Made by a program: the position numbers and the translations under genes. Shown here piece after piece: positions 3,809 to 61,951 of a stretch of DNA of 64,000 nucleotides (position 1 is its first letter; each line of letters starts with the position of its first letter). The notes under the pieces were generated by a model. The model was not told where the DNA came from. It did no database searches and was given only the letters and a program-made list of their open reading frames with translations. The DNA lies in contig NFUV01000002.1 of NCBI GenBank assembly GCA_002127295.1, forward strand, positions 434,001-498,000. The letters are read 5' to 3'. Source of the stretch: Chitinophagaceae bacterium IBVUCB2. Its GTDB lineage: Bacteria; Bacteroidota; Bacteroidia; Chitinophagales; Chitinophagaceae.

Positions 3809-4456
3809 ATGAAATCATTTAAAATGCTGATGATGGCAGCCTTAACCATTCTGTCTTTTGCATTTTTTGCACAAGACACAACAGCACAGAAAACAAAAAA
3901 GCAAGAAACTGAGAAAACAACTTATGTCTGTCCAATGCATCCTGATGTGATAATGGATAAGTCTGGAAAATGTCCAAAATGCGGCAGAAATCTCACCCCT
4001 AAAGAAAAAATGAAGATGGAAGTGATGGGGCTTTATGAATGTCCTGCTCATCCTGGTGTTACCAGTATCAAACCTGAAAAATGTCCGAAGTGTGGTACTT
4101 TAATGAACCTTTCGCCAAAAGAGAAAATGAAGTATGAAACAATGAAAATTTATGTTTGTCCGATGCATACAGATGCTATTCAAGACAAGCCGGGTAAATG
4201 CCCTAACTGCGGTATGGATTTAAAAGAAACAGATAGAATAGTACAAGCTTATTCCTGTTCAGAACATCCAGATGTGGTTAGCGATAAACCCGGCAAATGC
4301 ACCAAATGCGACAGAAATTTAAACCTTTCTCCAAAAGAAAAAATGAAAATGGAAGTGATGAAAATTTATACTTGCTCCATGCATCCTGATGTAACAAGTG
4401 ATAAACCCGGCAAATGCTCTAAATGCGGTATGGGTTTGAAAAAAAAGAATGATTAA
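3809..4456 (+). CDS. Secreted heavy-metal-binding-domain protein with five repeats
   Basis: 215 aa. An N-terminal signal peptide (about residues 1-26, ending near TTAQ) is followed by five repeats of about 35-40 residues with the plan Y-x-C-x2-HPD-x9-GKCxKCG-x-x-L. Each carries two or three Cys and one His, the HMBD type found at the N-terminus of some copper ATPases. Repeats 2 and 4 keep CPAHPG or CSEHPD and lose the Met. The repeats are joined by a conserved SPKEKMK-type linker. The likely role is periplasmic binding of soft metal ions such as Cu or Ag. Single HMBD units also occur in the proteins at 6089 (degenerate) and 19530. Confidence 0.82.
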   Translation: MKSFKMLMMAALTILSFAFFAQDTTAQKTKKQETEKTTYVCPMHPDVIMDKSGKCPKCGRNLTPKEKMKMEVMGLYECPAHPGVTSIKPEKCPKCGTLMNLSPKEKMKYETMKIYVCPMHTDAIQDKPGKCPNCGMDLKETDRIVQAYSCSEHPDVVSDKPGKCTKCDRNLNLSPKEKMKMEVMKIYTCSMHPDVTSDKPGKCSKCGMGLKKKND

Positions 4457-6324: not shown

Positions 6325-6666
6325 ATGATGGAAGTATTAAACTATATAGCCCAGGCCATTAGCATAGCTGGAAGCGTTATTATTATTTGGGGTGTTCTTA
6401 TAACAGTGTTCAATTTTTTAAAAAATGAAAAAGATAAATTAGCGAATATAAAATTGCCAAACAACAGCGGGCCTATCAGGTATCAGTTTAGCGGGTACTT
6501 AATACTTGGACTTGATTTTATGCTGGCAGCAGACATCATTCATACAATACATAATCCCGTTTTAAATGAACTGTATGTTTTGGCAATGATAGTTGGAATA
6601 AGGTCGGTTATAAATTTCTTTTTGGTTAAAGAAATGGGGAGTAGCGAATCAGCTAAAACGTTTTAA
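6325..6666 (+). CDS. DUF1622 family membrane protein
   Basis: 113 aa with three hydrophobic segments. The family signature is seen in RYQFSGYLILGLDFMLAADI (about residues 51-70) followed by VGIRSVINFFL. DUF1622 proteins are small inner-membrane proteins of unknown function. It begins 32 bases after the previous gene and probably belongs to the same transcript. Confidence 0.8.
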   Translation: MMEVLNYIAQAISIAGSVIIIWGVLITVFNFLKNEKDKLANIKLPNNSGPIRYQFSGYLILGLDFMLAADIIHTIHNPVLNELYVLAMIVGIRSVINFFLVKEMGSSESAKTF

Positions 6667-6695
6667 AAACTTGACACGCAAATAAATAATAAGTT

Positions 6696-7352
6696 ATGAA
6701 AAAGATTTTATTGATTTCGAATAGTGTTATCCTGGTCATCCTGATGGGATGCAGCACAACTTATAACCTTGTATCATCTGATTATGACAGGTCTGTTGAC
6801 TTTACAAAATACAAAACCTTTGCATGGTTGCCGGATAAAGCAGATACGGCCAATACGGTATACAATAACGAAATTATAAGGAATAATATTCGTAACTATT
6901 ACGGCTTGTGCATGAGTGACAGAGGCTATTCCATTGACCTTGAAAACCCCGGACTTTTATTGGAGCTGGTAATTACGAATGCTAAAAAGGAAAGGCTTAT
7001 AAATTCTTATCAGTCTTCATATCCGTCCTCCTACTATTACCGTCCTTATTATTATGGAAGTTCATACTACTCGCCCTACCAGTCCAGCTATTACTATCGT
7101 GGATATGGGCATCAATCGTTTAATTACTCCTATCCTAGTACAATAACTACAAGAAAAGAGGAATATGTGGAAGGTGCTATAACCTTAAATTTCGTTGATG
7201 CAAAAACAAAACAATTAATATGGACGGGTACAGCGAAAGGCGACATCTATGATGCTTCTTATATAAGCAGCAATCTGCACCCAGCGGTTCACACAATAGT
7301 AGAAGAGTATCCTGTCAAATCTTTAGTAAAACGTACCCATAGAATCAAATAG
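6696..7352 (+). CDS. DUF4136 lipoprotein
   Basis: 218 aa. A lipoprotein signal peptide ends in LMGC near residue 19. The mature part begins with the DUF4136 motif SSDYDRSVDFTKYKTFAWLP. A Tyr/Ser-rich central segment (about residues 108-150, with repeated SSYYSPY-like pieces) is inserted before the C-terminal motif EGAITLNFVDAKTKQLIWTG, which is typical of the family. Probably anchored in the outer membrane, periplasmic side; function unknown. Confidence 0.82.
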   Translation: MKKILLISNSVILVILMGCSTTYNLVSSDYDRSVDFTKYKTFAWLPDKADTANTVYNNEIIRNNIRNYYGLCMSDRGYSIDLENPGLLLELVITNAKKERLINSYQSSYPSSYYYRPYYYGSSYYSPYQSSYYYRGYGHQSFNYSYPSTITTRKEEYVEGAITLNFVDAKTKQLIWTGTAKGDIYDASYISSNLHPAVHTIVEEYPVKSLVKRTHRIK

Positions 7353-7380
7353 CATCATTAAAAAAATTAAAATAAACAAA

Positions 7381-8496
7381 ATGGCAACAATAACAACCCC
7401 AGCCAAAAGTGAAAAACCAAATGGCTTTCCTGCTGAAAATCAAAAGCAACAAATCATGAAAGCATTAGTTTATCACGGTGCAGGTAAAAAATCCTGGGAA
7501 GAAAAACCAAAACCAGTAATAAAGGAACCAACCGATGTAGTTGTAAAAATTAGTAAAACCACTATATGCGGAACGGATTTGCATATTTTAAAAGGCGATG
7601 TTCCCACTGTTACAGATGGACGGATTATAGGCCACGAAGGAGTTGGCATTATAGATGAAATTGGAACTGCGGTAACTAATTTTAAAAAAGGAGACCATGT
7701 TTTGATATCCTGTATTACTGCATGCGGAAAATGTGAATTTTGTAAGAAAGCAATGTATTCGCATTGCGCAAACGGAGGATGGATATTGGGTAATACAATT
7801 GATGGCACTCAGGCGGAATTTGTAAGAATACCTTTTGCTGATAACAGCTTATACCCTATTCCGGAAGGTGCCGATGAAGAAGCTCTGGTAATGTTAAGTG
7901 ATATCTTACCCACTGGGTTTGAATGTGGCGTACTAAGCGGACAGGTAAAGCCGGGGGATACCGTCGCAATTATAGGTTCAGGACCAATAGGACTGGCAGC
8001 ATTATTAACAGCGCAATTTTATACTCCGGCTGAAATTATTATGATAGACCAGGATGACAACCGCCTGAATGTTGCAAAAACTTTTGGTGCCACTCATATT
8101 ATCAATAGCGGAAATGTAAATGCTGTTGAAAAGGTGATGAGCCTCACAAACGGGAAAGGAGTTGATGTAGCCATTGAAGCCGTTGGCGTACCGCCAACAT
8201 TTGAAATATGCCAGGCCATTATTGGTGCCGGTGGTCATATTGCCAATATAGGGGTACACGGAAAAAGCGTTCCCCTTCACCTGGAAACTTTATGGTCCAG
8301 AAACATCTCAATTACTACCCGGCTTGTGGATACTGTATCCACACCTATGCTTTTTAAAACTGTACAGGCAGGAAAGCTTGAGCCGAAGAAACTCATTACA
8401 CATCATTTTAAATTGGATGAAATAGTTGCGGCATATGATACATTCGGAAATGCTGCAAAAGAAAAAGCGTTAAAGGTTATTTTGACCAATGAATAG
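7381..8496 (+). CDS. Zinc-dependent alcohol dehydrogenase (MDR family)
   Basis: 371 aa medium-chain dehydrogenase. Catalytic zinc ligands are in ICGTDLH and GHEGVG. The structural zinc loop has four Cys in CGKCEFCKKAMYSHC. The nucleotide fold shows GSGPIGLAALL followed by an acidic strand end (IMIDQDDNR), which favours NAD. The first 23 residues are polar and lie outside the usual fold, so the ATG at 7456 is an alternative start. It is paired with a second zinc alcohol dehydrogenase downstream. The substrate is unknown. Confidence 0.87.
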   Translation: MATITTPAKSEKPNGFPAENQKQQIMKALVYHGAGKKSWEEKPKPVIKEPTDVVVKISKTTICGTDLHILKGDVPTVTDGRIIGHEGVGIIDEIGTAVTNFKKGDHVLISCITACGKCEFCKKAMYSHCANGGWILGNTIDGTQAEFVRIPFADNSLYPIPEGADEEALVMLSDILPTGFECGVLSGQVKPGDTVAIIGSGPIGLAALLTAQFYTPAEIIMIDQDDNRLNVAKTFGATHIINSGNVNAVEKVMSLTNGKGVDVAIEAVGVPPTFEICQAIIGAGGHIANIGVHGKSVPLHLETLWSRNISITTRLVDTVSTPMLFKTVQAGKLEPKKLITHHFKLDEIVAAYDTFGNAAKEKALKVILTNE

Positions 8497-8588
8497 AAAG
8501 TTGCAATCAAACATAAAGGAGCTTTGAAAAAACATACATGTAATAATTACAAAAATTATTGAAGCATTACTCATCAACACAAAATATT

Positions 8589-9623
8589 ATGTTAGCAAAA
8601 ACAATGAAAGCTGCCGTAGTCCGGGAATTTGGCAAGCCTTTGGAAATTGAAGAAATGCCGGTAAAAGAACCAGGCATAAACGAATTACTTGTAAAAGTAA
8701 TAACCTGCGGTGTTTGCCATACCGATTTACATGCTTATCATGGTGACTGGCCCATAAAACCCAAACTGCCATTAATACCTGGACATGAAGCCCTGGGCTA
8801 TGTGGTAGCAGTTGGCGCACAGGTACAAAATATAAAAGAAGGCGATATTGTTGGCGTACCCTGGCTGTACAGTGCCTGTGGTATTTGCGAATATTGCATT
8901 ACTGGCTGGGAAACACTTTGTGAAACGCAGCAAAACGGCGGTTACAGTGTAAATGGAGGATATGCTGAATATGTAATTGCAGATGCCCGCTATATCGCTC
9001 ACTTTCCTGCCAATATAAATTTTACCGAAATGGCGCCCATCATTTGTGCTGGGGTAACTGTTTACAAAGGGCTTAAGCAAACAGATACCAAACCGGGAGA
9101 ATGGGTAGCAATTTCAGGTATCGGAGGATTAGGACACCTTGCTGTACAATATGCCAGGGCTATGGGGCTGCATGTGGCGGCAATAGATATATCAGCAGAT
9201 AAATTACGCCTTGCAAAAAGTTTAGGTGCCGAAATAACGGTGAATGCTAAGGAACAAGACCCAGGAGCATTTTTGAAAAAAGAAACGGGTGGTATGCATG
9301 GGGTGCTTGTAACTGCTCCCTCTCCAATCGCTTTTAAACAAGGACTTTCGGCATTGAGACGCAAAGGGACAATAGCGCTAAACGGCTTGCCTCCGGGAAG
9401 CTTTGACCTGCCAATCTTTGATACAATAATAAACGGTTATACAGTCAGGGGTTCGATAGTGGGAACCCGCAAAGACATGCAGGAGGCCATTGCTTTCGCA
9501 CTTGACGGTAAGGTAAAAACAACTGTTCATGCTGCTAAACTGGAGAATATAAATACTGTTTTTGATGAGATGAAAAAAGGAGAGATTGAAGGGAGGTATG
9601 TTTTAGAAATAGCAAAGCCCTGA
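8589..9623 (+). CDS. adhP: Zinc alcohol dehydrogenase, AdhP type
   Basis: 344 aa from the ATG at 8589; a TTG at 8559 would add ten residues that do not look conserved. Zinc ligands are in CGVCHTDLHAYHGDWP and GHEALGYV, with the structural Cys loop SACGICEYCITGWETLC. The Rossmann motif is GIGGLGHLAVQYA, followed by AIDIS. The sequence is of the propanol-preferring AdhP class that oxidises short primary alcohols or reduces aldehydes with NAD(H). Its position beside another ADH, with GAPDH and PPK2 further on, suggests redox balancing under stress. Confidence 0.85.
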   Translation: MLAKTMKAAVVREFGKPLEIEEMPVKEPGINELLVKVITCGVCHTDLHAYHGDWPIKPKLPLIPGHEALGYVVAVGAQVQNIKEGDIVGVPWLYSACGICEYCITGWETLCETQQNGGYSVNGGYAEYVIADARYIAHFPANINFTEMAPIICAGVTVYKGLKQTDTKPGEWVAISGIGGLGHLAVQYARAMGLHVAAIDISADKLRLAKSLGAEITVNAKEQDPGAFLKKETGGMHGVLVTAPSPIAFKQGLSALRRKGTIALNGLPPGSFDLPIFDTIINGYTVRGSIVGTRKDMQEAIAFALDGKVKTTVHAAKLENINTVFDEMKKGEIEGRYVLEIAKP

Positions 9624-9732: not shown

Positions 9733-9945
9733 ATGAAAAAAGTAATGACTTTGGTCGGCGCTATTACTTTAAGTTTAGTGATAATGGCACAAGACGACGG
9801 AATGAGGAACAATCATGGAAATTCTTCCAATGGTTCCTCTTTCTCTACAACGCAAATGCTTTTGTGGGGTATTCTGATTGTTCTAATTGTCGGAGGCCTG
9901 CTGTGGTTCTTTAAAGGCTACAGAAAAAGAAGTGACCAGAAGTAA
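9733..9945 (+). CDS. Small exported single-pass protein
   Basis: 70 aa from ATG 9733. A signal peptide (residues 1-20, ending VIMAQ) is followed by a short polar Asn/Ser/Met segment, one membrane helix (about 42-62) and a basic end KGYRKRSDQK, so the short N-terminal loop would face the periplasm. A longer frame starting with TTG at 9664 gives an unlikely N-terminus. It opens the redox/copper module; function unknown. Confidence 0.6.
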   Translation: MKKVMTLVGAITLSLVIMAQDDGMRNNHGNSSNGSSFSTTQMLLWGILIVLIVGGLLWFFKGYRKRSDQK

Positions 9946-9988
9946 TATTTACAAAACAAAAACAATTAATAATATAAAAACAATCATT

Positions 9989-10225
9989 ATGAACACATCA
10001 TTTTTAAATTCAATAAAAAGAATAATGAATCCTAAAATTACCGGCCTAATCATCATTGCGTTTGCATCCGTTTTATTCCTTGGCTGCAATAATGATAATA
10101 AGGGAGGAGCTAAAAAAACGGACCCTGCTACTCAATCAAATGAGCAAAAGGGCGATGACAAACATAAGGGCATGGACCATGATGCCCCCGGTATGGACAC
10201 CATGCATCGGAAAAAACAGGAATGA
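9989..10225 (+). CDS. Small Met/His-containing lipoprotein
   Basis: 78 aa from ATG 9989. The signal peptide ends in VLFLGC with Cys near residue 34, and the mature part is about 45 residues ending KHKGMDHDAPGMDTMHRKKQ, with Met-Asp-His pairs suited to Cu(I)/Cu(II). Its N-terminus (MNTSFLNSIKRIMNPK) is like that of the next gene (MNTLFFSSMKRIFF), as is the leader in front. The two seem to be paralogues that differ in the length of the Met-rich part. Confidence 0.65.
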   Translation: MNTSFLNSIKRIMNPKITGLIIIAFASVLFLGCNNDNKGGAKKTDPATQSNEQKGDDKHKGMDHDAPGMDTMHRKKQE

Positions 10226-10296
10226 GGTAAGTATGAATCAGACTTAACACATACGTAATCAATTTCTGTTACACAAAACAATTAAAAACAAATATT

Positions 10297-11202
10297 ATGA
10301 ACACTTTATTTTTCAGTTCTATGAAAAGAATCTTTTTTGATTCAGCTAACACACCTCTTACAAAGAATAAGATTACGATGAAACCAAAAATGATTGGCTT
10401 CATCACCATATTTGCAGCTGCTTTCATCGCTGGCTGTAACGGTAATAATAGTGCAGGTAGTACAAAATCAACAGACTCCCTCGCAAATTCAAATGTGCAA
10501 AGAGACAACGACGGCACTAATAGAATTTACCAGGGTATGGAAATGATAAAATCCGGCAATGAAATGGTAAATAACGGCCAAAAAGACAACGACAGGGCCA
10601 TGATAAATAATGGGATGGCAACAATGGACAAAGGAATGGAAATGGTAAAATCCGGTAGAAGTATGATGAATAATGCTCAGCATGAATCTATGGATGATGA
10701 TATGGCTATGGATGACAAGGGCAAAGAGATGTCGGGGAAAGACATGGATATGGCGGATTATGGAATGAACATGATTCACCAGGGGATGGATGTGGCAAAA
10801 TCAGGAAAAATGCTTACCGAACATGCACAAAAAAACAAAGATAAACCGATGATGCAAACAGGTATGGATATGATGGATAAAGGAATGGCTATGATGACTA
10901 TGGGTAAAGAAATGATGGGGAAAAATAAAGATGTGATGGCTGACAAAGGTATGGTTGACGATATGGACATGATGGACAAGGGTATGGATATGATGGAAAT
11001 GGGCAAAGATTCCGTTAGCAAAGCCATGGCTCCTCCTGAAAAGAAAATGATGATGGACGATGATATGATGGACAAGGGTATGGATATGATGGATAAGGGC
11101 ATGGACATGATGGAAATGGGTGCGGATAAAATGAAAAAAGACCCAATGAAAAAAGATAAAAAACCAATGCCCAAAAAAGACCCGGCTATGAAGGATATGT
11201 AA
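10297..11202 (+). CDS. Met-rich repeat lipoprotein
   Basis: 301 aa. The lipobox is FIAGC near residue 49 when counted from ATG 10297; ATG 10378 (MKPKMIGF) is an alternative start with a normal-length signal. The mature part is almost wholly made of irregular repeats of the type MDKGMDMM, GMEMVKSG and MMNN, rich in Met, Asp, Lys and Gly, and it ends in a Lys/Pro tail. Such methionine arrays are known to bind Cu(I) in periplasmic copper proteins. A periplasmic copper sponge or carrier for the adjacent oxidase is the likely role (inference). Low complexity produces long antisense frames that are not genes. Confidence 0.7.
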   Translation: MNTLFFSSMKRIFFDSANTPLTKNKITMKPKMIGFITIFAAAFIAGCNGNNSAGSTKSTDSLANSNVQRDNDGTNRIYQGMEMIKSGNEMVNNGQKDNDRAMINNGMATMDKGMEMVKSGRSMMNNAQHESMDDDMAMDDKGKEMSGKDMDMADYGMNMIHQGMDVAKSGKMLTEHAQKNKDKPMMQTGMDMMDKGMAMMTMGKEMMGKNKDVMADKGMVDDMDMMDKGMDMMEMGKDSVSKAMAPPEKKMMMDDDMMDKGMDMMDKGMDMMEMGADKMKKDPMKKDKKPMPKKDPAMKDM

Positions 11203-11233
11203 TGCCTTAACAGGGAAATCAAAAAACTTAATA

Positions 11234-13168
11234 ATGAAATGGTTCCGCACTACAATTTCTATCCTTCTTCTGGCCGTAATTTTTATTACTGCGGCATATT
11301 CTTCCATTGCTCAAACCCCCGAAGAGCATGCAAAGCACCACCCGAAAAAAACATCACCTGATTCGGCTGCCGTAATGAATAAGATGGCAAATGCGAAAGA
11401 TTCTAACAAAGCAATGTCGGACACAACCGGTAACAATAAAAGTGGCGGCATGGGTGAGGGAATGGGCGACATGATGAAGGAAATGGGTAAAGCACCAACT
11501 AAAGAGCTTTATCCTTCGCTGATGCAATGGCATGATTTGAGTCCCGAAAAACGTAAGGAAATAAAACAATTAGCGGATAAGCTGGTAACAGAAGGAAATG
11601 CTTTACTTGCAATGGGGTTAAGGCAACTTTCGGGTGCCACAAGGGAACAGAATTTTACAGCCATGCAGGAAGCCAACGAACAAATCCGGCGTGGGCAAAT
11701 TATGTTAGAAAGCGGCCTTGAAGGCCGACGGGCCCTGGCAGAAAACAAAGACCCACGCATAACAGCTTTGCAATGGTTTCAACGGGAGATGAACCTTTCG
11801 TCCTCAGCAGAAGGCAAGCAAACGCACGGCTTTTTTGGATTGTCGTGGTTTCATTATATCACTATGCTTTTTCTCGGTGCATTTGTTGTCATCATGATTT
11901 GGATGTACTTCCATAAAATGAAACGGGCAAATGCACTCGTTGCAAAATTAACGGGAACTTCCACCGAACAAATTCCGCTTCCCGGAACTTCAAAAACTGA
12001 TGCTCAACCGTCAGATGCAAAGACTCAGCCGGATGCAACCAAGCCAGGCGCAACGACGCCCGCTGCTATCAATCCAGACATCGCACCCTCAAAACCAAAT
12101 TCGTGGACTGGCACTTTGCTCGTCGCCGAAATTTTCATTGAAACGCCGCAAGTAAAAACATTTCGCCTCACAGACCCGGAAGGAGGGAAAATCCCGTTTA
12201 ATTATTTGCCGGGACAATTCATAACGGTAACGGTTATTCCAAACGGCGTTCCCGTGAAGCGGTCGTACACCATTGCCTCATCACCAACGCACCGGGATTA
12301 TTGCGAAATCACTGTAAAGCACGAAGAAAAAGGAACTGTTTCGCATTATATGCACACTGAAGTTCATGAAGGAGAGCTGATGCAGTTCACTGCACCTTCC
12401 GGCAAATTTACTTTTACAGAAAAACATGCCGACAGCGCTGTATTTATTGCTGGTGGAGTAGGTGTAACGCCAATGATGAGTGCCATCCGGTATCTGACTG
12501 ACCGCTCCTGGAAGGGTGATATTTATTTCTTCTTTAGCTGTAAGAGTGAAGACAATATTATTTTTCGTGAAGAAATCGGTTATCTCCAAAAACGTTATCC
12601 GAATTTACACGTCTGCATTCTTCTTGAAGAACCAGGCCGCAATCCGGATGATGGCTTTGTTACCGGACGCATTACCAAAGAAATCCTCAACGACCGGGTG
12701 CCGGAAATTGTATCCCGTATGATTCACGTTTGCGGACCCCCGCCGATGATGAATGCAGTAAAGTTGATGCTTGAGGAGCTTAAGGTACCGAAAGAGAATG
12801 TCATGGTCGAGGTTTTTGCAGGCCCCCCACCTAAGACTGCGCAACCTGCAACTGAAAAAGTTGGTGATGAAGCAATAAAACCTACAGCACCTGAAAAAGC
12901 AGGAGAAACCGGAGTCGTCACTTTTTCCAAATCAAATAAAACTGCGGTGCTTACACCCGACAAAACGATTCTGGAAGCTTCAGAAGAGGTGGGTGTAAAC
13001 ATTGAATATTCCTGCCGCATTGGAACCTGCGGCATTTGTAAAGTAAAACTGGTTTCAGGCCAGGTAAAGATGGCTGTGGAAGATGCTTTGACTGAAGACG
13101 ATAAGGCGCAAAATATTATTCTGGCCTGTCAGGCAAAAGCAACAGAAGCTGTAACAATTGATGTATAA
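11234..13168 (+). CDS. Membrane-anchored FAD/NAD(P)H oxidoreductase with C-terminal 2Fe-2S domain
   Basis: 644 aa. Signal or anchor helix (1-27), then a periplasmic part of about 180 residues, Met/Lys/Ser-rich and then helical. A membrane helix follows at about 208-230, then a Pro/Thr/Ala-rich linker. The cytoplasmic FNR unit has an FAD motif (RSYTIASSP near 343), a nucleotide motif (GGVGVTPMMSAI near 407) and CGPPPMM near 498. At the end lies a plant-type 2Fe-2S domain with CRIGTCGIC near 594 and a last Cys near 632. It should take hydride from NAD(P)H and pass single electrons on. The next gene, a membrane haem-b candidate, is the obvious acceptor. Confidence 0.85.
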   Translation: MKWFRTTISILLLAVIFITAAYSSIAQTPEEHAKHHPKKTSPDSAAVMNKMANAKDSNKAMSDTTGNNKSGGMGEGMGDMMKEMGKAPTKELYPSLMQWHDLSPEKRKEIKQLADKLVTEGNALLAMGLRQLSGATREQNFTAMQEANEQIRRGQIMLESGLEGRRALAENKDPRITALQWFQREMNLSSSAEGKQTHGFFGLSWFHYITMLFLGAFVVIMIWMYFHKMKRANALVAKLTGTSTEQIPLPGTSKTDAQPSDAKTQPDATKPGATTPAAINPDIAPSKPNSWTGTLLVAEIFIETPQVKTFRLTDPEGGKIPFNYLPGQFITVTVIPNGVPVKRSYTIASSPTHRDYCEITVKHEEKGTVSHYMHTEVHEGELMQFTAPSGKFTFTEKHADSAVFIAGGVGVTPMMSAIRYLTDRSWKGDIYFFFSCKSEDNIIFREEIGYLQKRYPNLHVCILLEEPGRNPDDGFVTGRITKEILNDRVPEIVSRMIHVCGPPPMMNAVKLMLEELKVPKENVMVEVFAGPPPKTAQPATEKVGDEAIKPTAPEKAGETGVVTFSKSNKTAVLTPDKTILEASEEVGVNIEYSCRIGTCGICKVKLVSGQVKMAVEDALTEDDKAQNIILACQAKATEAVTIDV

Positions 13169-13173
13169 AGTGT

Positions 13174-13935
13174 ATGAAACAGGAACGGACTATTATTGGC
13201 GGATTACTTGTGCTTCAACTTATCCTGTGGTTGGGCTTTCTGGTGCACCGTTCACCAAGGTTTCCCGGAAGCTTAATGGGTGGAATACTTGCGGTATTAG
13301 CCGCATTGCTTATGATTGTGCCGCCGCTGCTTTACTCAGCCACAAAACGGATAAAGTTTTTAAAAGAAAAAATAACTAAGCGTATTTCACTCGGCACAAT
13401 TTTAAACTGGCACATTTATACAAGCATTAGTGGTTCTATACTGGCTATTCTGCATACCGGCCATCGCTTTGAAAGCAATCTTGGCATATGGCTCACAGCA
13501 ATGATGCTATTAACAGTTTTGAGTGGTTTTGTGGGAAGGTATTTTCTTAGCTATTCTTCAAAAGAACTAAAAGAAAAACAAACTGAATTAAACTTGCTGG
13601 CTACGCAATACAATCAAATAATTGGGGCGATAGCACAGCAGCCAAACAACGAAGTAGCCTATACTGTTTCTAGAAATTTTGTAAGTCGTGCCTTAAATAG
13701 TTTTGTTGGAATGAAAACGGCTCAGGTAGACGCAAATGCCCCGCTTTCACTCCGTGCGATGAGAGTTGCGGAATCAATCGCCGACCTTGAGTATGCTATC
13801 AAGACTCATGAATTATTAAAACGCCGAACGGCGAGTTGGCTCAAAGTTCATATTGCAACATCCTGTGCATTTTATCTTTTGCTCATACTTCACATCTGGT
13901 CGGCTATTTATTTTGGCTTACGATATTTTAAATGA
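13174..13935 (+). CDS. Cytochrome b-like membrane protein
   Basis: 253 aa with about five hydrophobic segments. Histidines sit where membrane haem ligands would be expected: LNWHIYTS, AILHTGHRF, LKVHIAT and LILHIWS. The plan resembles ferric-reductase-like or b561-like transmembrane proteins, but I cannot name a family. It starts 5 bases after the reductase gene and its stop overlaps the cytochrome c start (ATGA), so all three are translated together. The inferred job is moving electrons from the cytoplasmic 2Fe-2S unit to the periplasm. Confidence 0.62.
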   Translation: MKQERTIIGGLLVLQLILWLGFLVHRSPRFPGSLMGGILAVLAALLMIVPPLLYSATKRIKFLKEKITKRISLGTILNWHIYTSISGSILAILHTGHRFESNLGIWLTAMMLLTVLSGFVGRYFLSYSSKELKEKQTELNLLATQYNQIIGAIAQQPNNEVAYTVSRNFVSRALNSFVGMKTAQVDANAPLSLRAMRVAESIADLEYAIKTHELLKRRTASWLKVHIATSCAFYLLLILHIWSAIYFGLRYFK

Positions 13936-14675
13936 AAAAAGCTTTTATTATAATAATACTTGTTCTGTCTGTTGTGGTATTTAACCGCTTCAGCGGCTTT
14001 GATGGTACAAAAAAAAGTAGCTGGCAAAACCAGGTAATGCCAGGTAAATTGTCGGCGTCACATGCATTGCTTTCAACGAACTGCGAATCTTGCCACACGG
14101 CAGTAAAAGGAGCAGATGATGCAAAATGTATGAGTTGCCATGCAGATAACAAAGCTTTACTGAGTCGGCAACCGACCGCCTTTCATGCTATTATTAAAAA
14201 TTGTTCATCCTGCCACGTAGAGCATCAGGGTATAGATGCAAATTTGCGAGTGATGGACCATGAAGCTTTGGCAAGTATTGGTGAAAAAATAATTGGTGAT
14301 GGAAAGAAATCTTTACAGTTCGATAAATCACATTTACCTGCTGACCATCCGCTTGTTTCAGCACTTGTAGCCAAACTCAATTGTGCCACTTGCCACAGCA
14401 CAAAAGATAAACACTTTGGATTGATGGGCAATAATTGCGCTTCCTGTCATGCTGTAACGCAATGGACAATTCCAAAGTTTCAACATCCATCAGTACTCAG
14501 TATCAGTTGTGCTCAATGCCACCAACCACCACCGAGTCATTATATGGAGCATTTTGAAATGATTTCTAAAAAAATTGCCAATCAGGAAAAAGCGGTAGTC
14601 AGTCAATGCTATTCTTGTCATAAAACTACTTCGTGGAACGACATCAAAGACGTTGGCTTTTATAAGCATCATTAA
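13932..14675 (+). CDS. Seven-haem c-type cytochrome
   Basis: 247 aa with an N-terminal anchor helix (about 1-18) and seven CxxCH motifs: CESCH, CMSCH, CSSCH, CATCH, CASCH, CAQCH and CYSCH. Extra His residues are spaced as possible sixth ligands. The protein is otherwise short, so the haems must be closely packed as in small class III-type multihaem cytochromes. It is probably periplasmic and held at the inner membrane. Position and overlap with the haem-b-like gene make it the likely electron exit of the module. Confidence 0.85.
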   Translation: MKKAFIIIILVLSVVVFNRFSGFDGTKKSSWQNQVMPGKLSASHALLSTNCESCHTAVKGADDAKCMSCHADNKALLSRQPTAFHAIIKNCSSCHVEHQGIDANLRVMDHEALASIGEKIIGDGKKSLQFDKSHLPADHPLVSALVAKLNCATCHSTKDKHFGLMGNNCASCHAVTQWTIPKFQHPSVLSISCAQCHQPPPSHYMEHFEMISKKIANQEKAVVSQCYSCHKTTSWNDIKDVGFYKHH

Positions 14676-14686
14676 ACAATTGTAAA

Positions 14687-17077
14687 ATGAAAAAAATTAT
14701 ATTAGTAGCCATTTGGATGTCAATATATTCTTTAGCATCTGCACAGGAGATGAAAGGTATGAATATGCCCCAAAAAGAACAATTAAAAAAATCGGCAATA
14801 AAGAAAAACCAAAAAGTTGTTGCAAGTCCAACTATCAATAAACAAGATGGAATGAAAATGCCCAAAGACACACTTAAGAAACCACCAATGGATATGGACA
14901 ACATGAAAATGCCTGCCCGTGCGTCAGGCGGGGATACTATGAACATGTTAAAAACCATTGAAACAAAAGTTTCAGGTAAACGTGTAGCGTATTTTCTAAA
15001 TGTTACTGATACTATGGTCACTTTTGCAAAAGGAAAATTAAAACCCGCCATTGCCATTAATGGCACCATACCGGCTCCTACACTTTATTTTGCCGAAGGC
15101 GATACGGCTATAATTTATGTACACAACCTGATGAAAGTAGAAACATCCATTCACTGGCATGGCTTGCTGTTGCCCAATGTTGAAGATGGCGTTCCTTACC
15201 TGACCACACCGCCGATAAAGCCAGGCACTACGTATACCTTTAGCTTCCCCATCATCCAAAACGGCACGTACTGGTATCATTCGCACACAGGATTGCAGGA
15301 GCAGGTGGGCCTTTACGGAGCCATTGTTATTTATCCAAAAAATGCGATGGCTCAAAAAGAAAAAGTGATTTTATTTTCCGACTGGACTAATGAAAATATG
15401 TCAACCGTAGTTCGTTCGCTAAAGGCAAACTATGAATGGTATGGCATCAAAAGAAAATCGGTGCAAAGCTGGGGCGAAGCGCTGGTAAAAGGATACTTAG
15501 GCGATAAGGTAAAACAGGAATGGAGCCGCATGCCGCCGATGGATGTATCTGATGTGTATTACAACGCTTTTCTTGCCAATGGACGCCAAACAAGCGAGTA
15601 CCCGGAATTTAAGCCGGGTGAAACAGTTCGGCTAAGGCTTATCAATGGCGCCGCAGGTTCATATTTCTATATACAATTTGCTGGTGGACCGATGACTGTT
15701 GTTGCTGCGGATGGTATTGATGTAAAGCCTGTAAAAGTTGATAAAATTGATTTTCCTATTGCTGAAACCTATGATGTGCTCATCACCATTCCTGCTGAAG
15801 GCGCTTATGAATTGAGGGCTACGGCTGCCGATATTTCCGGCTATAGTTCGGTGTATTTCGGCAATGGTAAAAAGATAAACGCACCCGACATTCCTAAGCT
15901 TAATTATTTTGCTATGTTGCGGGAGAGAAATAAAATGGACATGGGCGGTTCTAATAAAAAAGACGCATCAATGTCCGGTATGGATATGAAGGGGCAAAAG
16001 GACACCACGAAAAAAATGCAGCAGATGGACATGGGTGTAAAAAAAGAGGATATGGACATGCCGGGGATGAAGATGGATAACGAAAACAATTCAGGCACTC
16101 TTACATATGATATGCTGCGCTCTGTAAATCCCACAGCTTTTGATAAAAAAATACCGGTGCGTATTGTTCCATTAACGCTTACCGGTAACATGCTTCGCTA
16201 CATCTGGTCATTTGATGATAAGCCGCTTTCAAAGGCGGATAATATCATGATTAAAAAGGGCGAAGTCGTTCGGTTTAAAATGTTTAACAACACGATGATG
16301 CGACACCCTATGCACTTGCATGGCCACTTCTTTCGGGTAATCAACGCCCAGGGCGATTATGCACCACTTAAACACACCTTCGATATTCAACCCATGGAAA
16401 CCGTTACTATCGAGTTTTTAGCCAATGAAGAAAAAGACTGGTTTTTTCATTGCCATATTTTGTATCACCTCGCTGCGGGAATGGCCCGCATTGTAAGCTA
16501 CGAAGGTTCGGAACAAAATGAATTTTCAAAAACGGGGTATAAAATCTTGAAGAAGGAAGATAATTTTATTTCTAAATGGGCCGATTTGAATTTACTTTCC
16601 AATGGCGCCTGGCTTGAAGGGTTTGTATCCAACAATAAATACCAGCTTCGCATTGATGCCCGTGCAGATTGGAAAGGGAATTACGAAACAGAAACCCATC
16701 TGTTGCGCTTTATAGACAAACGGGATTACCTCGCTGCCTTTATTGGTTATGATTTTCGTCTAAATAAAGATGGAAACCCAAATGCAAAAGATAAACCAAA
16801 CACAAAAGATAACCGCAGGCAATTTGAAGTAGGCTTATTGTATTTACTGCCCTTCTTCCTGGAAACTGAAGTACGCATAGATCCGAAAGGGAAATTCCGT
16901 GCACAATTGCAACGAAGGGACATGCCCATTACAACAAGATTATTTTTTGATGGCAGGGTAAATACCGATAAAGAATATTCAGTGGGGCTGCGCTATTTTA
17001 TCAGCCGCACTTTCTCTATCAGCACACTATACGATAGTGACTATGGGGCAGGCGCTGGTATCAGCATTCGATATTAA
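14687..17077 (+). CDS. Multicopper oxidase with Met-rich loop and extra C-terminal beta domain
   Basis: 796 aa. Signal peptide (residues 1-19, ending SLASAQ), then a Met/Lys-rich stretch. Copper motifs: HWHGLLLPN near 155, WYHSHTGLQEQ near 195, HPMHLHGHFF near 541, and HCHILYHLAAGM near 588 (type 1 copper Cys, His and Met). A Met-rich insertion around 415-465 resembles that of CueO/CopA oxidases, which oxidise Cu(I). After residue about 620 lie about 175 residues of alternating beta strands ending in an aromatic residue, not part of a normal multicopper oxidase and reminiscent of outer-membrane CopB-like strands. Periplasmic or outer-membrane copper detoxification is likely. Confidence 0.88.
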   Translation: MKKIILVAIWMSIYSLASAQEMKGMNMPQKEQLKKSAIKKNQKVVASPTINKQDGMKMPKDTLKKPPMDMDNMKMPARASGGDTMNMLKTIETKVSGKRVAYFLNVTDTMVTFAKGKLKPAIAINGTIPAPTLYFAEGDTAIIYVHNLMKVETSIHWHGLLLPNVEDGVPYLTTPPIKPGTTYTFSFPIIQNGTYWYHSHTGLQEQVGLYGAIVIYPKNAMAQKEKVILFSDWTNENMSTVVRSLKANYEWYGIKRKSVQSWGEALVKGYLGDKVKQEWSRMPPMDVSDVYYNAFLANGRQTSEYPEFKPGETVRLRLINGAAGSYFYIQFAGGPMTVVAADGIDVKPVKVDKIDFPIAETYDVLITIPAEGAYELRATAADISGYSSVYFGNGKKINAPDIPKLNYFAMLRERNKMDMGGSNKKDASMSGMDMKGQKDTTKKMQQMDMGVKKEDMDMPGMKMDNENNSGTLTYDMLRSVNPTAFDKKIPVRIVPLTLTGNMLRYIWSFDDKPLSKADNIMIKKGEVVRFKMFNNTMMRHPMHLHGHFFRVINAQGDYAPLKHTFDIQPMETVTIEFLANEEKDWFFHCHILYHLAAGMARIVSYEGSEQNEFSKTGYKILKKEDNFISKWADLNLLSNGAWLEGFVSNNKYQLRIDARADWKGNYETETHLLRFIDKRDYLAAFIGYDFRLNKDGNPNAKDKPNTKDNRRQFEVGLLYLLPFFLETEVRIDPKGKFRAQLQRRDMPITTRLFFDGRVNTDKEYSVGLRYFISRTFSISTLYDSDYGAGAGISIRY

Positions 17078-17182: not shown

Positions 17183-17422
17183 ATGAAAAAAAATTATGAG
17201 TTACAAGGAATGAGCTGTGCAGGTTGTGTAAACACCGTAAAGAATGTATTACTTCAACTTCCAGGCATTGAAGATGCTGAAATTCACCTTCATCCTCAAA
17301 GTGCTCTTCTTACTATGAGCGAACCAATTGATATAGGCGAATTGCAAGACCAACTTAACAAGGTGGGAAATTATATGATTAAAGAAGTTGTTTTTCAATA
17401 TAGTAAATCAAAAATAAGGTAA
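17183..17422 (+). CDS. HMA-domain copper chaperone-like protein
   Basis: 79 aa, a single heavy-metal-associated domain with the metal motif GMSCAGC near residues 9-14 and the usual beta-alpha-beta pattern (VKNVLLQLPGIEDAEIHLHP). There is no signal peptide, so it is cytosolic, like CopZ chaperones that deliver Cu(I) to P-type ATPases. The C-terminal half departs somewhat from the standard ending. Confidence 0.85.
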   Translation: MKKNYELQGMSCAGCVNTVKNVLLQLPGIEDAEIHLHPQSALLTMSEPIDIGELQDQLNKVGNYMIKEVVFQYSKSKIR

Positions 17423-40158: not shown

Positions 40159-41358
40159 ATGAAAAAAATATACATTGTGATGGCCTGTATTATCGGGGCG
40201 ATAGTGTTGATACAAGCCTGCTCAAAATTACAGCCCGCTGCACCGGCTGATGATGAACTATTAGATGGGCCTGTGGCAGGGCTTACATACGAACAAAACA
40301 GGCAGTTTTTAGCTGGCGATGTTGCTTTTAATGATGAGATATTTACCACTCAAACGGGGCTCGGTTCCATCTTTGTAGCCTCAAGTTGTGGGAGTTGCCA
40401 TGCTGGCGATGGTAAAGGTCACCCGTTCACCACCCTTACAAGATTTGGTCAGGTAGATAGCACAGGTAATAACTTTCTTCACTTAGGCGGACCGCAACTA
40501 CAAAACAGGGCCTTGCCCGGTTTTACTCCGGAGCAAATACCAACAGGTGCAACTTTTTCAAAATTTACACCACCTGCCAATACAGGATTAGGTTTTTTAG
40601 AGTTTGTTACAGATGCCTCAATACTTGCAATGGCAGACCCCGCAGATGCTGATGGTGATGGCATTTCAGGTGTACCAAATTGGAATCATGTACCCAATTT
40701 TGTTACCATCCCTTCTAACGCCATTCCACAAAATGGTAAATACATTCATCGGTTTGGAAAGAAGGCGGCAGCTTTTAATTTATTGCATCAAACTGTTAAC
40801 GCCTATAATCAGGATATGGGAATTACCTCAACTTTTTTTCCGAAAGATGTTTATTCAGGATTAGATATAGACCCGGAAGTTTCCAATCAAACTGTGCAGA
40901 ACGTTGTATTTTATTTGCAAACACTAAAAACACCTGTTCAGCGTAATCCGGAAGATGCAGAAGTGATACAAGGAAAGAACATCTTTATACAAGCAGGTTG
41001 CGAAAGTTGCCATAAGCAAACTTTGCAAACAGGGTTTTCTCCTATTGCTGCATTATCAAACAAAACATTTCATCCATACACAGATATGCTTTTGCATGAT
41101 ATGGGTTCCGCCTTAGATGATGGCTATACAGAAGGCAGTGCGAAAACTTTTGAATGGCGTACCCCGCCATTATGGGGCCTGGGCTTGTCACCCAATTCAC
41201 AGGGCGGACAGTATTTCCTAATGCATGACGGAAGAGCAAGAACTATAGAAGATGCCATACAATTGCATGGTGGAGAAGCCTCACAAAGTAAAAATAAATT
41301 CAACCAGTTATCAAATGCAGATAGAAATGCGCTGCTCAAATTTTTAAAATCTTTATAG
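40159..41358 (+). CDS. Di-haem oxidoreductase (DHOR/thiol oxidoreductase family)
   Basis: 399 aa. Lipobox IQAC near residue 21; haem sites SSCGSCHAGDG near 75 and AGCESCHKQ near 285. Other family stretches are GGPQLQNRALPGF, DADGDGISGVPNW and WRTPPLWGLGLS, followed by LMHDGRARTIEDAIQLHGGE. This is the DHOR family, related to MauG/CcpA-type di-haem peroxidases; its substrate is unknown. Periplasmic. It heads an operon with a Rieske protein and a porin, likely under metal control by the divergent repressor. Confidence 0.85.
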   Translation: MKKIYIVMACIIGAIVLIQACSKLQPAAPADDELLDGPVAGLTYEQNRQFLAGDVAFNDEIFTTQTGLGSIFVASSCGSCHAGDGKGHPFTTLTRFGQVDSTGNNFLHLGGPQLQNRALPGFTPEQIPTGATFSKFTPPANTGLGFLEFVTDASILAMADPADADGDGISGVPNWNHVPNFVTIPSNAIPQNGKYIHRFGKKAAAFNLLHQTVNAYNQDMGITSTFFPKDVYSGLDIDPEVSNQTVQNVVFYLQTLKTPVQRNPEDAEVIQGKNIFIQAGCESCHKQTLQTGFSPIAALSNKTFHPYTDMLLHDMGSALDDGYTEGSAKTFEWRTPPLWGLGLSPNSQGGQYFLMHDGRARTIEDAIQLHGGEASQSKNKFNQLSNADRNALLKFLKSL

Positions 41359-43660: not shown

Positions 43661-46600
43661 ATGTTGAACAAAATCATTCATTTCAGTATACACCATAAAC
43701 TTGTCATCGGGTTAATGACACTGGCACTCATTATTTGGGGTGCATGGAGTGCCGCCAAACTTCCCCTAGATGCAGTACCGGATATTACTAATAACCAGGT
43801 GCAGATTATTACACTTACCCCAACACTCGCTGCACAGGAAACAGAACAGTTGGTTACTTATCCCATTGAGCAAAGCCTTGCTAACCTGCCAGATTTGGAA
43901 GAAATGCGGTCCATTTCAAGGTTTGGCTTATCAGTAATCACCGTTGTTTTTCACGATGATATTGATATTTATTTTGCCCGTCAGTTAATCAATGAAAAAC
44001 TGAAAGAAGCCGAAGAAAAAATTCCAAAAGGTATTGGTACTCCCGAATTGGCCCCGGTTAGTACCGGTTTAGGAGAAATATATCAATATGTAATTCATCC
44101 GAAGAAAGGGGCAGAAAATAAATATTCTGCAATGGACTTGCGTACGATGCAAGACTGGATTGTAGCCCGTCAGTTGTATGGCACAAAAGGCGTTGCGGAA
44201 GTAAACAGCTTTGGCGGTTTATTAAAGCAATATGAAGTAGCCGTTAATCCTTACCGTCTTAAAGGGATGAATGTAACCATTGCTGAAATATTTTCTGCTT
44301 TGGAAAAGAATAATGAAAATACTGGCGGTGCATACATTGATAAAAAACCCAATGCCTATTTCATCCGTGGTGTCGGCTTATTGGGTTCAATGGATGATAT
44401 AAATAATACTGTAATTAAGAAGGTAAATGACATTCCGATATTAATAAGGGATGTGGCTGAAGTAAAATTGGGGAATGCAGTTCGTTACGGTTCAGTAACC
44501 TTTAACGGGGAAAAAGAAGTAGTTGGTGGTATTGTAATGATGCTGAAAGGTGCTAACAGTGCAGCTGTGGTAGAAAGGGTAAAAGCAAAAATGGAAATCA
44601 TTAAAAAAGCAATACCTGATGATGTGGAAATAGAAGCTTATGCAGACAGAACAAGTTTGGTAAACCGTGCCGTAGGGACAGTTAAAACAAACCTTATTGA
44701 AGGGGCTTTAATTGTATTACTTGTACTGATATTGTTTTTAGGTAATCTCCGGGCAGGTTTAATCGTAGCATCGGCTATTCCGCTTTCTATGCTGTTTGCT
44801 TTGGGTATGATGAATGTGTTTGGCGTAAGTGCCAATCTGATGAGTTTAGGTGCAATTGATTTTGGATTGATTGTAGATGGAGCTGTAATTATTGTGGAAG
44901 CAACACTGCATTTTTTGGTAGTAAAGCATGTGGCAGGGAAGCTTACGCAAAAACAAATGGATGAAGCCGTAGAGGGCAGCGCAAAAAAAATGATGAGTTC
45001 AGCAGCCTTCGGACAAATTATTATTTTAATTGTGTACCTGCCTATACTTTCCTTACAGGGTATTGAAGGAAAAATGTTCCGTCCAATGGCTCAAACGGTT
45101 GGGTTTGCCATATTAGGAGCATTGATACTTTCACTTACTTATATTCCGATGATGTCGGCTTTATTTCTTTCCAAAAAAGTTTCGCACAAGAAAAATATTG
45201 CTGATAAAATGATGGATTTATTTCAACGGGGCTATGCACCGTTGATACGTTGGGCTATTAAAATGAAATATGCAGTAGTGAGCGGTGCTGTTGCACTCTT
45301 AGCTGTTGCACTATTTTTCTTTGGCAGAATGGGTGGAGAATTTATTCCGCAGTTACAGGAAGGTGATTATGCTTTTCACTGCATATTGCCACAGGGAACT
45401 TCATTAACGCAAAGTGTGGAAACATCCATGCAGGCAAGCCGCATCATCAAATCCTTTCCTGAAGTGGAGATGGTGGTAGGGAAAACAGGAAGTGCGGAAG
45501 TACCAACCGACCCTATGCCACCAGAAGCATCCGACCTCATCATTAAACTGAAACCAAAAAGTCAATGGACAACTACAAAGGATTATACTAAACTGGCTGA
45601 AATGATGATTGAAAAATTAGAGGTAATCCCAGGTGTTTTCTTTGAAGCATCGCAGCCCATTCAAATGCGGTTTAATGAACTGATGACAGGTGTGCGGCAG
45701 GATGTGGCAATTAAAATATTTGGAGAAAATATTGATACCCTGGCTATACTTGCCCCACAAGTTGCCAGAATAGTGCAATCAGTAAAAGGTGCAACAGAAC
45801 CACAGGTAGAAAGAACCACTGGCTTACCACAAATCACTATTCAATACGACAGGGCAAAGATTGCAGGTTACGGATTGAATATTGAAGACATAAACCATAC
45901 TATCAGTACAGCCTTTGCAGGTGAAGCAGCGGGAGTGATTTTTGAAAATGAACGAAAGTTTGATTTAGTGGTAAGACTCGATAGTGCCAGTCGTACATCT
46001 ATTGATGATGTCAGCAATTTATTTGTGGCAACTACAGACGGGAATCAGATTCCATTATCACAGGTAGCAACCGTTTCTTTTAAAGAAGGTCCTGCACAAA
46101 TTAGCCGTGAAGAAGGTAAACGTAGAATAGTGGTTGGCTTTAATGTGAAAGACCGTGATGTAGCCAGTGTGGTTAAGGAGATTCAGGAAAAACTAAATGT
46201 TGCTAAAATTCTGCCAACAGGATATTACTATACTTACGGCGGCACATTTGAAAATTTACAGGAAGCTTCTGCAAGATTAAAAATTGCAGTGCCGGTGGCA
46301 CTGGCATTGATTTTCCTTTTACTCTACTTCACCTTCGGTTCAATGAAAGAAGCTGCACTTATTTTTACTGCTATCCCAATGAGTGCAATAGGTGGTGTGT
46401 TTGCTCTGCTGCTTAGAGGAATGCCTTTCAGTATTTCCGCAGGTGTGGGCTTTATTGCATTGTTTGGAGTAGCAGTGTTAAATGGTATTGTTTTAATCAG
46501 CACCTTTAATCAGTTAGAAAAAGACGGTATTAAAGACATTATACAAAGAGTAATAGAAGGTACAAAAATCCGTCTGCGGCCTGTATTAATGACTGCTATG

Positions 46601-52790: not shown

Positions 52791-53078
52791 TCATACCAAA
52801 TCAATCAGACTCACTTTACTTTCTCCAGGCCGGAAACTGGGTTCATATAAAATATACCCGTATTCATGCAAGGCCCGCATACACCGGTGATACGTTACTC
52901 TCGAACTGATCTTCGATTTTTCCATAATCATATCAGGTCGCAACAATAGCAAATCGATGCCACCGGCGCAAACCATTTCATGTAGCAACGCTACATACAA
53001 ACTGATATGCGTCACACTAATCCGGTTATCCGCCTGAACCTTACCATAAAACTCCGTCAGCAACATAGAAAGATCCAT
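52791..53078 (-). CDS. Small ICE protein, winged-helix-like
   Basis: 95 aa from ATG 53078, whose A is the last base of the previous stop (TGATG). Helical with a possible winged-helix core: LLRPDMIMEKSKISSRVTYH followed by RCMRALHEYGYILYEPSF. It may bind DNA. No function is known to me; it is the last gene of the tra operon. Confidence 0.6.
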   Translation of the reverse strand: MDLSMLLTEFYGKVQADNRISVTHISLYVALLHEMVCAGGIDLLLLRPDMIMEKSKISSRVTYHRCMRALHEYGYILYEPSFRPGESKVSLIDLV

Positions 53079-54763: not shown

Positions 54764-54765
54764 TC

Positions 54766-56711: not shown

Positions 56712-56717
56712 ATGCTT

Positions 56718-57760: not shown

Positions 57761-57763
57761 GTG

Positions 57764-58918: not shown

Positions 58919-58924
58919 ACACAC

Positions 58925-61921: not shown

Positions 61922-61951
61922 ACTCACATAATTTATTTATTAAAAAATGGT

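Follow-up and report, generated by a model that had tools for sequence, protein, structure and literature searches.

In yeast Fre reductases and in the STEAP and NOX proteins of animals, electrons pass from NAD(P)H through a flavin to stacked b hemes and flow outward, and the yeast Fre reductase together with the multicopper oxidase (MCO) Fet3 is a known pairing of a metalloreductase with such an oxidase. The usual account of copper resistance in Gram-negative bacteria rests on oxidation by an MCO, efflux, and sequestration. The available part of one account describes the eukaryotic cupric reductases as Fre-, Steap-, and Dcytb-type heme proteins and calls CcoG the first specific bacterial cupric reductase (PMC7558416). 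In putative gene clusters of iron oxidizers, the inner membrane proteins of PCC3 and PCC4 have five helices, of which the third and fifth carry HX13H and the fourth SGXXG; in the available part of the source they are thought to hold two b hemes, to feed multiheme cytochromes, and perhaps to use quinone, and HX13H heme-ligand pairs are given as typical also of ferric reductase and NOX proteins (PMC5566968). Here we describe a locus of Chitinophagaceae bacterium IBVUCB2, in a stretch of 64,000 nucleotides (C2:434001-498000 of a 4.0-Mb genome; hereafter the window), where four genes at 10297 to 14675 encode a Met-rich exported protein, a membrane-anchored flavoprotein reductase, a heme b protein (b), and a heptaheme-type cytochrome (c). 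Possibly the module is a hitherto undescribed device for reducing copper.

Seven open frames on the + strand, spanning window positions 9733 to 17077, lie where an earlier note on this DNA had placed them, in one direction and with small gaps or overlaps. The reductase gene is separated from the b gene by 5 bases, the b and c genes overlap by 4 bases, and 11 bases lie between c and the MCO gene.

9733 to 9945, + strand: 70-amino-acid single-pass protein with an N-terminal signal-like helix; no family above cut-off; peripheral
9989 to 10225, + strand: 78-amino-acid putative lipoprotein; FLGC lipobox judged by eye
10297 to 11202, + strand: 301-amino-acid Met-rich putative lipoprotein with 62 Met; IAGC lipobox judged by eye
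11234 to 13168, + strand: 644-amino-acid FAD/NAD(P)H/2Fe-2S reductase, membrane-anchored according to Pfam and hydropathy
13174 to 13935, + strand: 253-amino-acid bis-heme b membrane protein (b), assigned from invariant His pairs
13932 to 14675, + strand: 247-amino-acid heptaheme-type cytochrome (c) with an N-terminal anchor helix, assigned from seven CxxCH and Pfam
14687 to 17077, + strand: 796-amino-acid CopA-like MCO with a Met-rich insert and a CopB-like C-terminal part (Pfam, hhalign); usual neighbor, not a subunit

The reductase, b, and c genes are a unit, and with the Met-rich exported gene they make up the four-gene module. The trio very probably exchanges electrons between NAD(P)H and the periplasm, and this conduit has good support. 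We tentatively read the core at 10297 to 14675 as a horizontally moving electron-export module of copper-resistance islands that reduces Cu(II) to Cu(I), a reading whose chances fall a little short of even; the predicted role of Cu(II) as acceptor of the exported electrons is held just as tentatively. A narrower version, in which a dedicated, transferred metalloreductase has its own Met-rich Cu(I) acceptor and forms a reductive arm that pairs up with the CopA-type oxidase, is possible and is given slightly less weight.

Relatives of b with 68 to 75% identity occur at nine public loci (five Dyadobacter, Flavisolibacter, a Cytophagaceae metagenome-assembled genome [MAG], and MAG contigs labeled Williamsia and Acidobacteria), and reductase and cytochrome flank b in the same order in all nine, the reductase of L014 being only partly examined. 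In the Williamsia-labeled (L012) and Acidobacteria-labeled (L013) contigs the module is 68 to 72% identical to Bacteroidota versions, and these bins may be mixed. A tblastn search found b on 52 of 72,556 plasmid records, as did a second query, with Sphingobium, Alteromonas, Legionella, Spirosoma, Variovorax, Methylocystis, and others as hosts; on plasmids and an integrative and conjugative element (ICE), the module is present in Alpha-, Beta-, and Gammaproteobacteria and in Bacteroidota. Twenty of the 52 plasmid neighborhoods were chosen so as to cover different genera, and near-identical Sphingobium plasmids were omitted; pairs such as L027/L030, L017/L031, L021/L022, and L026/L032 are still alike. 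Among the Dyadobacter loci, L006, L007, and L008 carry nearly the same island. Wherever the genes are intact on the 20 plasmids, the reductase-b-c order is kept, and its recurrence around b relatives with as little as 34% identity led us to reject a chance cluster. In L018, an unannotated frame with seven CxxCH lies behind b. The pairwise distances of b, reductase, and c correlate with Mantel r values of 0.92 to 0.96 over 22 loci, with 0 of 2,000 permutations as high. The earlier note had staked its proposal on homologues being found together in other genomes, and together they do occur.

Some copies look broken. In Roseomonas the reductase lies in two frames and the c motifs are split 3 and 4 over two frames, and damage is also apparent in Gluconobacter, in Legionella anisa (b), and in one Bradyrhizobium copy (IS3). 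The trio is broken or incomplete in L016, L023, L029, L034, and L010, through insertion sequence (IS) insertion, stops, split frames, or a departing end. Such copies fit dispensable mobile cargo. On a Methylophaga plasmid (L024, 16745 to 23971), an apparently full cytochrome c maturation (ccm) cluster lies beside the trio.

The b protein belongs to no Pfam family above cut-off: DUF4405 (PF14358) reaches 19.9 bits against a curated 26.7, and 13 of the 26 members of the b family match it at an E value of 0.05 or better. His25, 80, 94, 97, 226, and 240 are invariant in all 26 aligned sequences, and His80/94 and His226/240 form two HX13H pairs of presumed heme ligands. This bears out the description of the protein as heme-b-like in the earlier note, which had named a lack of heme as grounds for dropping its proposal. 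The sequence SGFVG is found at residues 117 to 121, and W222 forms a WX3H with H226; no tryptophan stands four residues ahead of H80 in the window protein, so that WX3H is absent from helix 3. The charges around the helices suggest that His80 and His226 point towards the cytoplasm and His94 and His240 towards the periplasm. The His80/94 helix is found by hydropathy in L017 and L020 and falls below the threshold in the window protein; an AlphaFold model built from 8 sequences (mean pLDDT 60.9) has helices at the expected places, with the His80/94 helix at residues 73 to 96. A sequence search of the PDB with b returned chance-level matches only.

Judged by its described features, window b resembles the PCC3/PCC4 membrane proteins, with five membrane helices, HX13H on the third and fifth, and SGXXG in the form SGFVG, and because the architecture matches, this kind of protein was already foreseen in print, with other partners. 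It differs in having W222 of helix 5 only, whereas WX3H is expected on helices 3 and 5, and in its company: in the part of the source available, PCC3 and PCC4 go with a porin and large cytochromes (PMC5566968), whereas b goes with an NAD(P)H flavoprotein, a small heptaheme cytochrome, and Met-rich proteins. The module, as proposed, shares with Fre, STEAP, and NOX proteins the passage from flavin to b hemes, the outward flow, and the two HX13H pairs, which are present in window b. In contrast to Fre and NOX, flavoprotein and heme protein are encoded by separate genes, in the window and in intact loci, with no fused FAD/NAD domain, and the module adds a 2Fe-2S domain, a Met/His ectodomain, and the heptaheme cytochrome. 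Only 3 of 26 b proteins match Ferric_reduct (PF01794), all weakly and short of its curated cut-off (best E value, 0.0089), and the window protein does not match. The module would work like a Fre-type metalloreductase, yet it is not a member by the tests run.

The reductase matches the Pfam families FAD_binding_6, NAD_binding_1, and Fer2. Its hydrophobic stretches lie at residues 8 to 26 and 208 to 226, and the redox domains are C terminal to the second; the hydropathy scan thus agrees with the earlier note, which had put the redox part in the cytoplasm, behind the second membrane helix. The RxYS/T, GGVGxTP, and CGP motifs and the 2Fe-2S cysteines are kept in the 27 reductases examined, except for the fragment L023a; the alignment comprised 20 sequences. 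In PHROGs the sole match was a ferredoxin. An ordinary oxygenase reductase was considered and rejected, as the best NCBIfam matches are far under the cut-off. Between the two helices lies an ectodomain, placed in the periplasm, that carries the stretches EHAKHHP and MGDMM in the window protein. An H..HH stretch follows the signal helix in 22 of 27 reductase readings, and a loose Met-Met-Met pattern is likewise present in 22 of 27. The five readings that lack H..HH are L018, where the stretch lies upstream of the annotated start; L016 and L025, where the frame before the reductase contains one; the fragment L023a; and L023b.

The cytochrome matches Cytochrome_C7 and its relatives in Pfam. Seven CxxCH motifs occur in 26 of the 27 cytochromes examined; L010 has six, and its end departs from the others. 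Across 24 sequences, eight further histidines are invariant and one is nearly so, and these nine are enough for bishistidine ligation of seven hemes; the stretch PPSHxMxHFxM is also invariant. A hydrophobic helix spans residues 5 to 23, and because no cleavage site is visible by eye behind it, the protein is more probably membrane anchored than free. Of the seven-heme exported cytochrome described in the earlier note, the seven CxxCH and the exported part therefore stand, and release is less likely. The PDB sequence search gave no relative of c, and the quinol-oxidizing anchor NrfH (TIGR03153) scores 17.2 bits against a cut-off of 134.2.

In the scheme that we propose, cytoplasmic NAD(P)H would be oxidized by the FAD/2Fe-2S protein, assigned by family, and electrons would pass to the inner (His80/His226) and then the outer (His94/His240) b heme and on to the membrane-anchored heptaheme cytochrome on the periplasmic side. 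The earlier note had proposed the route from NAD(P)H through b to periplasmic hemes, and this route is supported, as are its topology and heme b assignment. Reduction of Cu(II) to Cu(I) would most likely take place at or near the Met/His-rich ectodomain, and Cu(I) would be held by the Met-rich lipoprotein and handed to Cu(I) pumps, stores, or chaperones. Flow would be outward if copper is the partner, since the redox potentials do not allow Cu(I), too weak a reductant, to drive NAD(P)+ reduction. Met thioethers favor Cu(I), which Cus-type pumps, P1B-1 ATPases, and Csp stores also take, and at some loci genes annotated as Cu(I) pumps or stores, copper-binding proteins, or four-helix copper-binding proteins lie near the module; this preference and these neighbors argue for Cu(II) as acceptor and for capture of Cu(I). 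The MCO would be the opposite, oxidizing arm, useful with O2; where O2 is scarce and the MCO cannot work, the reductive route may be the useful one. The alcohol and sugar enzymes of the islands may supply NAD(P)H. With CcoG the module would share membrane-linked bacterial Cu(II) reduction, and it differs in that CcoG has two tetranuclear iron-sulfur ([4Fe-4S]) clusters, whereas no such domain was matched in the trio. The Gig system has been proposed to move electrons the opposite way, from periplasmic Cu(I) into the quinol pool, in the part of its description available (PMC10304878).

The 301-amino-acid lipoprotein exceeds all 71 other window open reading frames compared in Met-richness. The mature part of its 78-amino-acid neighbor is mildly Met-rich (Met 5.7%, His 5.7%), so that of the two Met-containing lipoproteins in the earlier note one is strongly so and the other only slightly. 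The exported gene ahead of the reductase ranks first in Met-richness among the open frames at 14 of 22 loci and no lower than fourth at the other eight, a count that omitted L007, L008, L014, L018, L026, L030, L032, and L034. Examined separately, L007, L008, L026, L030, and L032 all have a Met-rich gene, which is divergently oriented in L026 and L032 and there has a mature part with 25.7% Met. At L013 another gene (6378 to 8126) separates the Met-rich gene from the reductase; it encodes six CxxCH and a cytochrome b561 domain, with Ni_hydr_CYTB above cut-off. The proteobacterial and Bacteroidota Met-rich proteins look unrelated by eye, which suggests that Met-richness, not sequence, is the conserved trait, and the 301-amino-acid lipoprotein has no detectable relation to the reductase ectodomain (hhalign probability, 0.3%).

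A Met-rich substrate adjoining an electron chain also recalls MsrPQ, in which a heme b membrane protein delivers electrons to a periplasmic methionine sulfoxide reductase. By analogy, the chain might repair oxidized Met in Met-rich copper binders. We regard this as very improbable: the annotations of the 20 neighborhoods, whose gene tables are incomplete, name no methionine sulfoxide reductase, no MsrP was seen, and the terminal component of the module is a multiheme carrier, the heptaheme cytochrome.

Linkage to copper genes was measured as the distance from b to the nearest MCO (PF07732), with the expectation obtained by 5,000 rotations. On the 20 plasmids an MCO lies within 10 kb of b in 13 cases (4.39 expected; 0 of 5,000 rotations as high), within 5 kb in 8 (2.4 expected; 3 of 5,000), and within 20 kb in 14 (7.4 expected; 6 of 5,000). 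Because some plasmids form like pairs, the test was repeated on a set thinned of four near-duplicates, which gave 10 of 16 within 10 kb (3.5 expected; 1 of 5,000) and 6 of 16 within 5 kb (1.9 expected; 32 of 5,000). Copper-annotated genes or an MCO are found within 12 kb in 16 of the 20 plasmid neighborhoods. Of 10 chromosomal loci, 4 have an MCO within 10 kb (0.08 expected), but three of these represent a single island; 8 have one within 30 kb (0.23 expected). A MerR-family regulator, 0.5 to 1.4 kb upstream on 5 of 20 plasmids, has Cys115 and Cys124 with no third Cys nearby, which we take to be the pattern of MerR-family proteins that sense copper, silver, and gold in monovalent form. Given these regulators, the MCO enrichment, the Met-rich gene, and the H..HH stretches, the tie to copper and Met-rich carriers is firmer than the earlier note could know.

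The module might instead reduce other soft metals (silver, gold, mercury, or tellurium) or deposit Cu(0), detoxifying them. Met-rich ligands bind Ag(I) too, and a multi-metal ICE surrounds the window module. On the 20 plasmids, MerT is not enriched near b (0 within 10 kb, 0.96 expected; 2 within 20 kb, 1.9 expected), nor is ACR3 (0 of 20 within 10 kb, 0.42 expected, and 0 of 20 within 20 kb); these are weak controls, since MerT and ACR3 are present on just 8 and 3 of the 20 plasmids. With this in view, such a role appears improbable.

A more general function has stronger footing. The trio could be an electron valve between NAD(P)H and the periplasm, taking whatever partner is available, for example a hydrogenase, with flow even inward from H2; its presence in metal islands would then be explained by metal stress blocking respiration. 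Sugar- or alcohol-metabolism genes are found in 9 of 20 plasmid neighborhoods (by eye, without a control), and the window encodes two alcohol dehydrogenases and glycoamylase-like and GAPDH-like genes. In Alteromonas and Glaciecola the trio heads NiFe-hydrogenase clusters (L017, 10058 to 13541; L031, 10058 to 13544), with CopC/CopD or a copper export gene nearby as well. By position in L017, orf1 and cyt of the Alteromonas HynSL cluster should be b and c of this family; they precede a hydrogenase, and in the available part of the report they are not needed for maximal HynSL activity in Escherichia coli (PMC3102683). An Alteromonas copper island with hydrogenase genes has also been described, with no occurrence of the words cytochrome or reductase in the part of that paper available (PMC8478169). 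The valve leaves unexplained the Met-rich gene upstream, the H..HH and Met stretches of the ectodomain, and the MCO enrichment within 10 kb, and we consider it unlikely, though it deserves to be taken seriously.

Several observations weigh against Cu(II) reduction as the function of the module. The strongest is that, from the hydrogenase-cluster copies, the trio can apparently serve another partner. L015, L016, L023, and L024 have no copper-annotated gene within 12 kb; RND pumps are often near b too, several within 10 kb among the matches listed; and among the 10 chromosomal loci, 4 have MerT and 1 has ACR3 within 30 kb (by eye), so that these islands are multi-metal and the MCO count of 8 in 10 is not copper specific. 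The Met-rich gene of L016 and L025 may be a detached N terminus of the reductase. The b model was poor and gave nothing in Foldseek against the PDB at E values up to 0.001, and the AlphaFold model of c (7 sequences; pLDDT 37.1) was unusable and was not used. Finally, production of Cu(I) in the periplasm could worsen toxicity. The cell would pay for Cu(II) reduction if the Cu(I) formed were not bound immediately; such binding could be provided by the Met/His ectodomain and the Met-rich neighbor.

The MCO itself has the three cupredoxin domains Cu-oxidase_3, Cu-oxidase, and Cu-oxidase_2 in Pfam, and a Met-rich insert with 13 Met in 91 residues. It is CopA-like: TIGR01480 (CopA/PcoA) matches with 405.9 bits (E value, 2.7e-121), below the NCBIfam cut-off of 478.95. 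From about residue 612 its C-terminal part compares with CopB (hhalign 74.6%, E value 2.6e-5, few sequences). Its Met-rich insert and CopB-comparable tail likewise recall the CopA/PcoA-CopB system, from which it differs in scoring under that cut-off and in holding both parts in one protein; CopA and a CopB-like part seem fused in this single MCO. To our knowledge, classical cop operons hold no trio of this kind.

The position of the MCO gene varies. It starts 12 bases past the cytochrome gene in the window, lies 4.6 to 5.9 kb behind it in L006 to L008, is on the opposite strand in L021 and L022, and was found neither on the L011 contig nor in the L014 genome. Over 11 loci, MCO distances correlate with those of b at r 0.60, a value that none of 2,000 permutations reached; at 10 of these loci, b and reductase correlate at 0.95. 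The variable placement, the absences, and the looser correlation therefore mark the MCO as a frequent neighbor that partly shares the history of the module, not as a subunit. An obligate partner was rejected, since direct adjacency was observed in the window alone and elsewhere the gene is kilobases off, on either strand, or missing from the record. The pairing of a dedicated reductase with the MCO in the earlier note is on these grounds not supported as a fixed one; nor is a reductase-MCO pairing the unnameable system it was taken for, as Fre with Fet3 is one, and FET3 is among the PDB matches of the window MCO.

These data also bear on the idea that the cytochrome feeds the MCO, making an NAD(P)H-driven periplasmic O2 reductase, or that the chain serves an MCO-porin metal-redox system. 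The close spacing in the window, the linkage to MCOs, and the HCHxxxHxxxxM motif, found in all 13 MCOs examined (HCHILYHLAAGM at residue 588 of the window protein), speak for it, and in the part of the source available PcoAB-type MCO-porin pairs have been proposed as metal-redox systems (PMC5566968). Against it stand the lack of a CxxCH domain in all 13 MCOs, the single adjacency, the MCO genes that elsewhere are distant, on either strand, or absent, and the loose tracking of b, so that we give this arrangement a low probability.

The module is cargo of a 134-kb CTnDOT-type ICE inserted at tRNA-Pro(TGG). The right end of the window (53078 to 63916) holds a CTnDOT-type tra region with TraG, TraJ, TraM, and DUF4138; the single PF03432 relaxase of the genome is at C2:533257, and one of six integrase matches in the genome, a tyrosine integrase, sits at C2:539846. 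Direct repeats of 28 and 22 bases occur at C2:406964/541219 and C2:407010/541267, the latter overlapping the tRNA gene at C2:541272-541346, and delimit an element at C2:406964-541288. The tra genes, relaxase, tyrosine integrase, and flanking repeats at a tRNA gene expected of such an ICE are therefore all present.

Among 395 Bacteroidota genomes, 106 match the b profile at an E value of 1e-10, the own genome with 378 bits and the next with 83.4. As only the own genome exceeds 100 bits, the other Bacteroidota matches were taken as distant b proteins and left out of the linkage analysis. A search of 58 genomes, most of them from its genus and order, returned the own genome and a single weak match (30.5 bits). 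In two Dyadobacter species a 15.9-kb stretch is 99.99% identical, and a third has the island at 96.6% identity (L006 to L008). The spread of the module therefore looks recent and horizontal, judging from this identity and from the own genome alone among the 395 having a close relative.

Further genes of the window lie around the module.

3809 to 4456, + strand: protein with five heavy-metal-binding (HMBD) stretches; relatives in L011 and L012
6325 to 6666, + strand: DUF1622 membrane protein, recurring beside the module in other loci
7381 to 8496 and 8559 to 9623, + strand: two zinc alcohol dehydrogenases, a possible NAD(P)H supply
17183 to 17422, + strand: 79-amino-acid HMA (CopZ-like) protein by family match, possible copper chaperone, accessory

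In 12 of 29 records DUF1622 is no more than 7 kb away from b (distances read by eye), and AdhP is annotated close to the module on 4 of 20 plasmids. The 70-amino-acid protein has no match among the nine public loci with close b relatives. At 43661 to 47980 the window encodes a 1,439-amino-acid fusion of an RND pump (ACR_tran) with an outer membrane efflux (OEP) domain, and ACR_tran open frames of comparable length are found in several relatives. A di-heme oxidoreductase of the DHOR family lies at 40159 to 41358, inside the metal-resistance island.

A search of full-text literature, with most subscription papers outside its coverage, gave no description of this gene combination, and the available parts of PMC10734462 and PMC11434368 hold nothing on the module. 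If the proposed function is true, it would add a reductive, energy-spending arm to copper resistance and a second kind of cupric reductase, and copper islands would be able to shift the periplasmic Cu(I)/Cu(II) ratio either way. The module offers a concrete gene set for deletion and purification work.

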